A model generated the notes under the pieces. The model saw nothing but the letters and a program-made list of their open reading frames with translations, made no database searches and had not been told where the DNA came from. From Conexibacter sp. SYSU D00693 (GTDB taxonomy: Bacteria; Actinomycetota; Thermoleophilia; Solirubrobacterales; Solirubrobacteraceae), in the NCBI RefSeq assembly GCF_017084525.1, contig NZ_CP070950.1, positions 1,426,001-1,490,000 on the forward strand: a DNA stretch of 64,000 bases. Reading direction: 5' to 3'. Position 1 is the stretch's first letter, and each line of letters begins with the position of its first letter. Positions 21,441-50,842 of this stretch are shown one piece after another. The position numbers and the translations under genes were made by a program.

Positions 21441-21803
21441 GTGGCCGCCGTCGTCCACATTCCCTGGTACGCCACGGTCTTCCGCGGCGACAAGCTCGAG
21501 GCGGCGCTGGAGGACATCGCCAAGGTCTCCGTCCGCTACGGCGCGAAGTCCTTCGCCGTCTACCGCTACAACGACGACCGCTACAAGTTCCTCCAGGTCG
21601 CCGAGTTCGAGGACAAGACCGACTGGGAGCGCTACTGGGACTCCCCGGAGTTCACCGACTGGCGCATCGCCAACCAGTCCTACTTCCAGGTGCCGGTCGT
21701 CTACGGCATGACCGACCTCGTCGTCGCGGGGACGGTCAACCCGGAGCTCCTGCGCTCCGCCGCGGTCCCCGCCGGGGAGACCGAGGGCGACCTCGCGGGC
21801 TAG
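21441..21803 (+). CDS. Small protein of unknown function downstream of ccr
   Basis: This 120 aa soluble protein starts at a GTG 4 bp after the ccr stop, so it is almost certainly in the same transcript. It is rich in aromatic residues (FAVYRYNDDRYKFLQVAEF and DWERYWDSPEF). That pattern and the size suggest a dimeric alpha/beta-barrel of the antibiotic-monooxygenase/EthD type, but this is only a guess. The C-terminal 20 residues are low complexity. It overlaps the convergent vsr remnant by CTAG, and a hairpin terminator follows at 21831. A role near crotonyl-CoA metabolism is inferred from position only. Confidence 0.7.
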   Translation: MAAVVHIPWYATVFRGDKLEAALEDIAKVSVRYGAKSFAVYRYNDDRYKFLQVAEFEDKTDWERYWDSPEFTDWRIANQSYFQVPVVYGMTDLVVAGTVNPELLRSAAVPAGETEGDLAG

Positions 21804-22246
21804 CGCCCGCCGCTGGTCGTCGTGCTCGTCGAAGGGCCCGCCTCGTGCGGGCCCTTCGTCGTCGTGGGGTCCGGTCGGCGCTCGGGCCGAGACCGTCGTG
21901 CCCGGACCACGGCGCACACGATCGCCGCGACGTCCTCGGGCTCCTCGTGCTCCCAGAAGCGCAGGACGGTCCAGCCGCGAGCTCGCAGCGCGGCGGTGTT
22001 CCGGGCATCGCGGGCCTGGTTGGCCAGGAGCTTCTGGCGCCAGTAGGCGGCGTTGTGCCTGGGCGCGTGGAAGTGGTCCGGGCAGCCGTGCCAGAAGCAC
22101 CCGTCGACGAAGACCGCGACCCGCACGCGGGTGAAGACCACGTCGCCGCGGGTGATCTGGCGTGGCCCGTCGCCCCAGCGCAGCGGGAGGTCCTTGCGGA
22201 AGCGCTCGCCGCGGCGGTGCAGGGCCGACTCACAGAGGCGCGGCAC
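21800..22246 (-). pseudogene. vsr: Very short patch repair endonuclease (Vsr-like), probably truncated
   Basis: The core is clearly Vsr: GDVVFTRVRVAVFVDGCFWHGCPDHFH, split between the catalytic Asp (GDVVF) and the Cys/His zinc site (GCFWHGCPDH), then LRARGWTVLRFWEHE. Vsr nicks DNA beside T:G mismatches made by cytosine deamination. The conserved N-terminal region that starts full-length proteins is missing. Instead the frame continues upstream into the 54-bp tandem repeats. The last 30 residues are a Thr/Ser/Pro/Gly-rich read-through covering a hairpin terminator. Both ends therefore look damaged. No cytosine methylase gene is nearby. A short but working protein from the GTG at 22246 cannot be excluded. 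Confidence 0.6.
21831..21857. terminator. Hairpin terminator after the ccr operon
   Basis: Perfect 11-bp arms, GAAGGGCCCGC (21831-21841) and GCGGGCCCTTC (21847-21857), flank a 5-nt loop. No T-run follows. It lies 28 nt after the ccr-operon stop and inside the C-terminal read-through of the vsr remnant. Confidence 0.65.
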
Positions 22247-22265
22247 TCCACGCGACTCCCGTGAC

Positions 22266-22447
22266 GACGGGGTCTGACCCCGAGCACCGGCGACGCGACA
22301 CGCCCTGGCACCACCATGCGACGGGGTCTGACCCCGAGCACCGGCGATGCGACACGCCCTGGCACCACCATGCGACGGGGTCTGACCCCGAGCACCGGCG
22401 ATGCGACAGGCCCTGGCACCACCATGCGACGGGGTCTGACCCCGAGC
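22266..22447. repeat. Tandem 54-bp repeat, three full copies and one partial
   Basis: Copies start at 22266, 22320, 22374 and 22428 (last copy 20 bp). Each begins with GACGGGGTCTGACCCCGAGC, holding the palindrome GGGGTC-T-GACCCC, and continues with a 34-bp GC-rich spacer ending CACCACCATGC. Copies differ by about one base each (for example GACGCG versus GATGCG). Units are head to tail with no unique spacers, so this is not CRISPR. The motif looks like a REP-type palindrome. The array lies where the N-terminus of vsr should be. Confidence 0.85.
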
Positions 22448-22454
22448 GCGCGGA

Positions 22455-22478
22455 GGGCCCGGCGTCCGTGCCGGGCCC
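22455..22478. repeat. Perfect hairpin beside the 54-bp array
   Basis: Arms GGGCCCGGC (22455-22463) and GCCGGGCCC (22470-22478) surround a 6-nt loop. It could serve as a terminator for the clp gene on the minus strand, although there is no T-run. Confidence 0.55.
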
Positions 22479-22490
22479 GTTCGCGGGGGT

Positions 22491-48601: not shown

Positions 48602-49174
48602 CTAGTCGCCGGACGGCGCGGAGGTCGCGTTCGCGTCCGCGTCCGTGGAGCCGTCGGCGCCCTCGAGGCCCGGGTTCTTCTTGGGCACGAGGACCAGGCG
48701 CTTGAACTCGGCGACGAGCGTGCCGTCCTGGTTGAGGACCTTCGTGTGGACCTTCACGACGCCGCGGTCGGGCTTGGAGCGCGAGGCCTTCTTCTCGAGC
48801 ACCTCGGTCTCGACGAACAGGGTGTCGCCGTGGAAGACCGGGTTGGGGTGGCTGAGCTCCTCCGTGGCGAGGTTGGCGATCGCCTTGCCCGAGACGTCGC
48901 TGACGCTCATGCCCAGGGCGAGCGAGTAGACCAGCGGACCCACGACGACGTTGCGGCCCTGCTGCGACTTGCCCGCGTACACGTCGTTGATGTGCAGCGG
49001 GTGGTGGTTCATGGTGATCAGGCAGAACAGGTGGTCGTCGGCCTCGGTCACCGTCTTGGCGGGCCAGTGCTTGTAGACCGCGCCCTCCTCGAACTCCTCG
49101 AAGTAGCGGCCGTACGTGTGGGCGCCGCTCGCCTCGCGCTCGCGCTGGTCGGTCGTGAATCCGTTGTCGCTCAT
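48602..49174 (-). CDS. MaoC-like dehydratase, candidate mesaconyl-CoA hydratase
   Basis: This 190 aa single hot-dog domain has the MaoC region [16 protein letters not shown] near residue 53, the variant of the hydratase motif seen in mesaconyl-CoA hydratases and related beta-methylmalyl-CoA dehydratases, and [15 protein letters not shown]. The C-terminus is a 20-residue acidic Asp/Ala/Ser tail. In the ethylmalonyl-CoA pathway this enzyme hydrates mesaconyl-CoA. Well-studied proteobacterial versions are about 340 aa with two domains, so this would be the short actinobacterial form acting as a dimer. The lyase for the next step is 1.7 kb away. Confidence 0.75.
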
Positions 49175-49212: not shown

Positions 49213-50226
49213 GTGGAGCCCTCGTCCGCCCGCCCTGATGACGTCGAGCGGCGACTTGAGGTCGCCAGGCGATCTCAAGTCGCCGGTCGACCTGACGACC
49301 ACGCCGTGGCGGCGCTTGCGGCCAGGCAGCAGGGGCGCGTCACCTGGCCACAGCTGCTCACTCGTGGCTTCACCCCGGCCATGGTCCAGCGTCGCGTGCG
49401 CGCCGGGCTCCTCCATCCGCGCGGCCGCGGGGTCTACGCGGTGGGTCACCCGGCGACGTGGCGGGAGGCCCTGTTCATGGAGGCCGTCCTCGGAGCGGGG
49501 GCGGCCACGCGCCTGAGCCACAACTTCGCGTGCGAGCACCTGGGGCTGCTGCCGTTCCAGGCCGGCCCACCGCATGTGCTCAGCGAGGTCGATGGCCCGT
49601 CGGTCCGCCGCGAGTTCATCCGTCACCGCTCAGCGACCTTGCGACCTCAGGACACGATCGTCGTGCGAGGCGTGCCCTGCACCAGCGTGGCGCGGTCGCT
49701 GGTCGATCTCGCGTCGTTCGGCGACGTCGCGATGCTGGAGAAGGCCTTCGACCGCGCGCAGCTGCGTCGCGTCCTTCGCATCGAGGAGGTCGAGTCGGTG
49801 CTCGCCGCCACCACGCGACCGCGCGGCGCGGTCGCCCTGCGCAGGCTGCTGGCGCTCCATGGTGCGTGCCCCCTGACGCGCTCGGAGCTCGAGCGGCGGT
49901 TCCTGCAGGTCATCCGAAGAGCGCGACTGCCCGAGCCGCTCGTGAACCTCGCTGTCCGTCTCGAGGGGCGCAAGGTCGTCCCCGACTTCCGCTGGCCGCG
50001 CCACAGCCTGGTGGTGGAGGTGGACGGCGCGAAGTGGCACGAGGGACCGGTGCGGTCGCGTGCCGATCGCCGGCGCGACCGGCGCCTCTACCTCCTGCAG
50101 GGCTGGACCGTCCTCCGCTACGGCTGGGAGGAGGTCGTCGGTGAGGGCGCGTTGGTGGCAAGCGAAGTCGAGCGGGGACTTGAGGTCGCCGGGCGACCTC
50201 AAGTCGCCGCTCGACGCGCGATGTAG
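49213..50226 (+). CDS. DUF559-type nuclease-like protein with AbiEi-like N-terminus, bracketed by palindromes
   Basis: The core (about residues 33-330) starts with an AbiEi/winged-helix region ([34 protein letters not shown]). It ends with a DUF559 endonuclease-like domain ([11 protein letters not shown] with the catalytic-type Asp, then [17 protein letters not shown], a Vsr-related fold). Its N- and C-terminal ends are encoded by two copies of a 49-bp palindrome read in the same frame ([17 protein letters not shown] and [17 protein letters not shown]). The start is uncertain: GTG at 49186, 49213 or 49306. The last avoids the repeat. Family members are often mobile and linked to defence, but no partner is nearby. 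Confidence 0.8.
49243..49291. repeat. 49-bp palindromic repeat, copy A
   Basis: Arms GCGACTTGAGGTCGCC (49251-49266) and GGCGATCTCAAGTCGC (49268-49283) around a central A, extended outward by GTCGAGCG and CGGTCGAC. Copy B at 50167 matches at 45 of 49 positions in the same orientation. It overlaps the 5' end of the DUF559 gene. Confidence 0.85.
50167..50215. repeat. 49-bp palindromic repeat, copy B
   Basis: GTCGAGCG, GGGACTTGAGGTCGCC, G, GGCGACCTCAAGTCGC, CGCTCGAC. It covers the 3' end of the DUF559 gene and stops just before its TAG. It is 924 bp from copy A, a multiple of three, which keeps both copies in one frame. Confidence 0.85.
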
Positions 50227-50236: not shown

Positions 50237-50842
50237 GTGGAGCACGCCGCCGACCTCCGCGCCACCGACGCCGACCGCGCGGCCGTGGTCGAGGCGCTGC
50301 GGGACGCCGGCGCGGACGGGCGGCTGGACGTCGACGAGCTCGAGGAGCGCGTCGGGCAGGCGCACGGCGCGAAGACGCACGGGGAGCTCGCGGCGCTGAC
50401 CGCCGACCTCGGCGGCCACGCGCTGCCCGCGGCCGTCGGGGCCGCCTCGGGCCCACTCCCGGCGACGACCGGGCCGCGCCGCGAGCTCGCGGTCCTCGGC
50501 GACGTCGTGGTCGACCTGCGCGCGTCGCGCGAGCCGGTGCTGGAGCTCAAGGCCACGGCGATCCTCGGCGACGTCACCGTGCTGGTGCCGCCGGGGTCGC
50601 AGGTCGAGCTCGTCGGCGGCGCGGCGGTCCTGGGAGACCGCAAGGTCGACGTGGAGCCCGCGGCGCAGCCCGGCCCGAGGGTCCGCGTGCACGCGCTGGC
50701 GATCCTCGGCGACGTCCGGATCCGCACGACCACCCGCGGCAAGGCCGGGTGGTGGCGCCGGCATCTGGGCGGCCACGGGGCCCGGCATCTGCCGGAGCCG
50801 CCGGCGCCACCGCCCCCTCCCCCGCCCTCCCCGCACCGCTAG
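50237..50842 (+). CDS. DUF1707 (SHOCT-like) protein
   Basis: This 201 aa protein has the N-terminal DUF1707 helix pair (LRATDADRAAVVEALRDA then GRLDVDELEERVGQA) and a C-terminal part with repeats of ILGDV (VVLGDVVVDLRA, AILGDVTVLVPP, AILGDVRIRT), the parallel-beta pattern of the cell-wall-active-antibiotics-response domain (LiaF-like). A Pro/His-rich tail ends the protein. Family members are proposed membrane-stress or regulatory proteins. There is no membrane helix here, so it likely acts at the membrane through partners. Confidence 0.82.
   Translation: MEHAADLRATDADRAAVVEALRDAGADGRLDVDELEERVGQAHGAKTHGELAALTADLGGHALPAAVGAASGPLPATTGPRRELAVLGDVVVDLRASREPVLELKATAILGDVTVLVPPGSQVELVGGAAVLGDRKVDVEPAAQPGPRVRVHALAILGDVRIRTTTRGKAGWWRRHLGGHGARHLPEPPAPPPPPPPSPHR

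Follow-up and report, generated by a model that had tools for sequence, protein, structure and literature searches.

Repetitive extragenic palindromes (REPs) have been tied to a single type of enzyme, the Y1 REP-associated tyrosine transposases (RAYTs), and what mobilises the many palindrome families that lack a dedicated enzyme is a stated open problem (PMC3733652). RAYT genes have been described as always flanked by two inverted REPs, with dispersed REPs that preserve their complementarity (PMC2817692). Palindromic sites are also used by antitoxins: the reported target of AbiEi is a pair of 23-bp inverted repeats spaced 3 bp apart, 49 bp in all (PMC7319586). As for proteins with a DUF559 domain, an SOS response that depends on the DUF559 protein VsrA has been described in Caulobacter when a cytosine methyltransferase is absent (PMC12907096). 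In this study, we analyse a stretch of 64,000 nucleotides (the window) from the genome of Conexibacter sp. SYSU D00693 (G000; one contig, 4.43 Mb), in which a gene for an AbiEi-DUF559 fusion protein carries a 49-bp palindrome at each of its ends. We think that the gene and its two palindromes probably form one unit of a REP-like system, that is, an analogue of the RAYT/REP system built on an unrelated enzyme. No prior report linking DUF559 to palindromes or transposition was found in the open-access literature, a coverage that leaves out most subscription journals and preprints.

The gene (49213-50226, plus strand, stop codon at 50224-50226) is an open reading frame whose product has Pfam matches to AbiEi_4 and DUF559 only. 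Its palindromes, designated family A, lie at 49243-49291 and 50167-50215 (49 bp each, no strand assigned); both are supported by an inverted-repeat scan and by folding, and the 5' copy also by the positions of palindromes in homologues. The copies differ at 4 of 49 positions and are spaced 924 bp apart, just as an earlier reading of this DNA (the original prediction) had described them. They are the top two near-perfect inverted repeats in the window, with 24-nt arms, a 1-nt spacer, and arm complementarity of 92% and 96%. In single-strand folding, copy 1 as DNA reached z = -7.5 and copy 2 as RNA z = -8.0, and none of the shuffles was equally stable. A 35-mer core with up to three mismatches occurs at two window positions only, namely those of the pair, and shuffles are expected to give none. 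An exact scan of 84,980 species genomes, from which the source genome was possibly left out, found no match to the family A core, so the palindrome seems to be lineage-specific; searches of Rfam and PHROGs gave no match.

The open frame of the gene runs through both copies, as had been claimed, and the 3' copy encodes an in-frame C-terminal tail. Three GTG codons (49186, 49213, and 49306) are possible starts. Because the GGAGGCATG start lies 5' of the gene's own palindrome in the orthologues of two relatives, translation through the 5' palindrome is plausible. The 3' copy of the window gene is exceptional among the homologues, in that it lies nearer to the nuclease core (+48) and is read through in frame.

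The AlphaFold model of the protein (pLDDT 90) splits into residues 1-184 and residues 191-295, and each part has a recognisable fold in this predicted structure. The first part (49312-49863, plus strand), a winged helix followed by the antitoxin C-terminal domain, is the predicted palindrome binder; in a fold search it matched Streptococcus agalactiae AbiEi (6y8q, Z 13.4 over 174 residues) and Mycobacterium tuberculosis Rv2827c (1zel, Z 9.9), and the protein also matched the PADLOC AbiEi profile (3e-16). The second part (49882-50196, plus strand) is an EDxHD/Vsr-like nuclease domain, which matched the EDxHD homing endonuclease I-Bth0305I (3r3p, Z 12.6), a Neisseria DUF559-like protein (Z 12.4), and Vsr (1cw0, Z 10.9) by fold, and 3hrl (2e-10) and 3r3p (2e-5) by sequence profile. 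The original prediction, too, had related DUF559 to Vsr-type nucleases. Residues E194, D225, E236, H243, and D252 are invariant across 65 homologues. On these models, the window protein is a DNA-binding AbiEi antitoxin fold joined to a presumably active EDxHD nuclease. No Y1 transposase fold was among the fold-search matches, a listing that is not a dedicated test for Y1.

We surveyed 98 homologues in related Actinomycetota, in loci of up to 20 kb each, with 991 other genes of the same loci as controls; homologues were present in 46 of the 61 related genomes, and many of these relatives are draft assemblies. The palindromes are associated with these genes. A palindrome scoring at least 13 stands in the 5' flank of 27% of the homologues as against 1.4% of the control genes, and in the 3' flank of 18% as against 2.7%, while about 0.1% of random positions reach this score. 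Both ends reach it in 8 of the 98 homologues and in none of the 991 controls. A covariance model built from four copies led to a second DUF559 gene of the same genome, bracketed by a related yet distinct palindrome (family B); in a congener, it detected a palindrome where the best homologue starts. Homologues of other actinobacterial families (L252, L255) and of Actinomycetospora succinea (L238) likewise have strong or matched palindromes at their flanks.

The positions are regular as well. The centre of the 5' palindrome typically lies 35-47 bp ahead of the AbiEi core, and 31 of 33 genes have it in a common codon phase, with the gene frame open through 31 of the 33. The centre of the 3' palindrome is found in the vicinity of the stop codon, about 65-73 bp past the nuclease core; in most homologues these palindromes start near the stop codon, and their codon phases are scattered, with no frame lock. 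In about ten genes (L102, L107, L109, L142, L204, L231, and others) an in-frame ATG coincides exactly with the dyad of the 5' palindrome (a CATATG-type centre) and is a candidate start codon, as if translation began in the hairpin loop. At another homologue (L117, G035:C1:2388000-2407999), two tandem palindrome units 5' of the gene make up an 89-bp composite inverted repeat.

When 52 gene-flanking palindromes were aligned on their centres, 65-96% of them were paired at distances of 2 to 23 nt from the centre, and pairing fell from 0.69 at 23 nt to 0.31 at 24 nt. In other words, the palindrome is a fixed 49-bp unit. Its geometry equals that of the published AbiEi operator, and this holds across palindromes that are mutually unrelated; they share only a weak consensus around CGACTTG, registered on the palindrome centre. 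The two arms covary: none of 500 shuffles gave a signal as strong, and it exceeds that of slid controls too (22 copies, mainly of the families in the window's genome). In the profile aligned on the centres, no conserved GTAG/CGTC-type tag is conspicuous outside the 24 paired nucleotides, though no search aimed at tags was made.

The palindromes are specific to their gene. The 5' and 3' flanks of the same gene match with a score of at least 25 in 25 of 96 genes, a score reached by only 1 of 9,120 non-cognate flank pairs and by the own flanks of 1 of 991 control genes. The window gene and about 25 homologues carry their own palindrome on both sides. Paralogues whose proteins are 68% identical have unrelated palindromes, yet the two ends of each gene are alike. 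The palindromes diverge fast, but the two ends of one gene do so together, which suggests that sequence is copied between the ends. As for orientation, the inverted match is better in 13 and the direct match in 8 of 26 genes, and the window pair itself scores 41 inverted and 40 direct. Four homologues (L141, L153 (16526), L138, and L152) have flanks that match strongly as direct repeats (scores 25-44) and are poor palindromes; they are possibly a variant end type. It might be said that such structures are ordinary terminators or chance palindromes, since gene ends in general are somewhat richer in palindromes. This explanation is almost certainly wrong, being refuted by the 991-gene control, the fixed positions, the cognate matching, and the dispersed copies described below; moreover, scans for T-tract terminators and for sigma-70 promoters detected neither at the window gene.

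Copies without a gene (solos) were counted over the whole genome for four palindromes. Besides the window pair, the 49-mer of family A has about six solos in its genome, where the original prediction had proposed to look for further copies. Family B has about eleven solos in the same genome in addition to its gene pair at 4209638/4210581, and family D has about four. The palindrome of one gene in another genome (G027) occurs at 21 places, two of which are its own flanks, and a reversed-pattern control occurs at none; 560 kb of that genome also contain solos of several other genes' palindromes, several of them clean and full-length. The solos are intergenic in 30 of 33 cases, though predicted genes fill 81% of those loci, and in this dispersal the elements are REP-like, as had been proposed. 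Their neighbouring genes are convergent in 12, divergent in 4, and tandem in 20 cases, so there is no preference for promoters; a preference for convergent genes gave p = 0.31 against the local background and a marginal p = 0.047 against a wider one. At one place (L078, G000:C1:3788224-3788561), two identical family A palindromes with similar flanks lie 289 bp apart, which suggests a local, BIME-like duplication.

Could these copies have been spread by a Y1 (RAYT-like) transposase encoded elsewhere in the genome, with the DUF559 genes as mere passengers? The window's genome does have three Y1_Tnp matches, and this idea draws on them; all three, however, lie away from every listed palindrome, the genome with about 19 solos of one family (G027) gave no Y1_Tnp match, and each palindrome is tied to one DUF559 gene. 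We therefore regard this explanation as very improbable.

The main rival is of another kind, namely that the palindromes are operators only: the AbiEi half would repress its own gene from the 5' copy, the solos would be a small regulon, and the nuclease would serve an unrelated task such as mismatch repair or defence. AbiEi and Rv2827c indeed control their own expression from 23-bp inverted repeats close to the start (PMC7319586). Moreover, the window protein clearly has the AbiEi fold, the palindrome has the 49-bp geometry, and its 5' copy overlaps the region of translation start. On the contrary, the matched 3' copy stands where an operator has no obvious use, the solos do not prefer promoters, and the paralogues with unrelated palindromes and like ends point to copying. 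On balance, we consider that the palindromes are unlikely to be operators and nothing else, though of all the competing explanations this one deserves the most attention.

The history of the locus bears on whether the whole unit moves. The window's genome and two relatives (G004, G005) have the gene at the MaoC-HpcH site, and three others (G001, G002, G006) lack it there. In the palindromes of the three genes, the changes affect both arms jointly (GTCGAGCGGCGACTTG..., GTCGAGGGACGATTGG..., and GTCGAGGGACGACTGG...). Where one genome has several homologues, these are paralogues that have diverged from one another and are far from identical. Since the orthologues keep the same site with co-diverged palindromes, and tblastn against plasmids and phages gave no match, vertical descent seems to be the gene's main mode of inheritance, interrupted by loss or by rare gains, as is also the case for RAYTs. 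An IS-like or homing cassette made of palindrome, gene, and palindrome, whose solos would be remnants or derivatives resembling miniature inverted-repeat transposable elements (MITEs), might account for the compact build with palindromes abutting start and stop, for the ends that more often match better inverted, for a fold that the protein has in common with a homing endonuclease and TnsA, and for the patchy occurrence at this site. The orthologous position, the divergent paralogues, the lack of a plasmid or phage copy, and an empty site without a footprint make such a cassette improbable. The single palindrome that, according to the original prediction, an empty site might retain is missing from all three genomes, and mobility of the unit as a whole is not demonstrated.

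Of the three explanations that the original prediction had offered, the likeness to REPs holds, and a nuclease recognising the hairpins at the ends of its own gene fits best, given the AbiEi fold, the conserved nuclease, the gene-specific matched ends, and the operator geometry; the recognition itself is what we infer from them. We propose the following mechanism. The AbiEi half would bind the palindrome as two 23-bp inverted half-sites, in the geometry known from AbiEi operators, and may thereby also repress its own gene. The nuclease half would then cut the bound palindrome, or its cruciform, either within it or beside it. Repair templated by a further copy would even out the two ends of the gene and occasionally seed a palindrome at a new site.

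Several observations weigh against a REP-like system of this kind. About half of the homologues have no palindrome, and several genomes (e.g., G041 and G053) are almost without them. Overall, genes with more similar proteins do not have more similar palindromes (Mantel r = 0.007, p = 0.44). The numbers of solos (4-19 per family) are far below those of typical REP families, no target-site duplication is evident by eye at the palindromes, no strain-level movement was seen, and the empty MaoC-HpcH sites bear no footprint.

A wider conclusion concerns the AbiEi-DUF559 proteins as a whole, a large uncharacterised family in actinobacteria. They may constitute a second, independently evolved class of REP-spreading enzymes, in which an antitoxin-derived binder and a homing-type nuclease keep and copy their own 49-bp operator-like palindrome at the gene ends and across the genome, palindrome and enzyme switching target quickly; we regard this as an evenly balanced proposition. 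If it is true that a dedicated nuclease of another fold, with palindromes matched gene by gene, serves these repeats, it would be a second solution besides the RAYTs. The palindromes would offer a concrete DNA target for DUF559/AbiEi_4 proteins, of which ten or more are possible per genome, and they would connect the operators of antitoxins with homing nucleases and with genome repeats in a directly testable manner. If the specificity is truly gene-specific, the family would be a natural library of DNA-binding nucleases with long (49-bp) sites.

The window gene is flanked by a MaoC-type hydratase gene (48602-49174, minus strand), which serves as a synteny anchor, and by a downstream DUF1707 gene (50237-50842, plus strand), which is not an AbiEii toxin. 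Among the neighbours (MaoC, DUF1707, and HpcH) there is no AbiEii nucleotidyltransferase toxin, and no methyltransferase was among the immediate neighbours examined. Elsewhere in the window, a 54-bp direct tandem repeat (22265-22447; 3.4 copies, 98% identity) lies upstream of a Vsr/DUF559-like open reading frame (21803-22489, minus strand) and shares its frame. This open reading frame has no AbiEi half, and its surroundings showed no pair of 49-bp palindromes.

Compared with known systems, the protein resembles the antitoxins of type IV toxin-antitoxin systems (S. agalactiae AbiEi and Rv2827c) in the fold of residues 1-184, and its palindromes resemble their operator, in which 3 bp separate two 23-bp inverted repeats (PMC7319586); it differs from them in the fusion to a nuclease, in having no adjacent AbiEii toxin, and in palindromes that stand at both gene ends and are dispersed. 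With I-Bth0305I and Vsr it shares, in the predicted model, the fold and the catalytic residues within residues 191-295, but here the gene is free-standing and chromosomal, has an AbiEi half, and lies in no intron or intein. Rickettsia palindromic elements and CGTC REPs can likewise sit in frame within genes, and they are families without a known mobilising enzyme (PMC3733652), whereas here a candidate dedicated enzyme is encoded beside each palindrome family. RAYT/TnpAREP genes with their REPs or REPINs are alike in having their own palindrome on both sides of the gene, dispersed extragenic solos, compensatory changes in the arms, and divergent chromosomal paralogues that each possess a separate repeat (PMC2817692, PMC3733652). 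The palindrome here differs from theirs in its 49-bp length with arms of 23-24 nt, its lower copy number, and a 5' copy in the reading frame, and the enzyme between the repeats is an AbiEi-EDxHD nuclease instead of a Y1_Tnp (PF01797) HUH tyrosine transposase. In other words, the anatomy is shared but the enzyme is not Y1, and the system is therefore not a RAYT.
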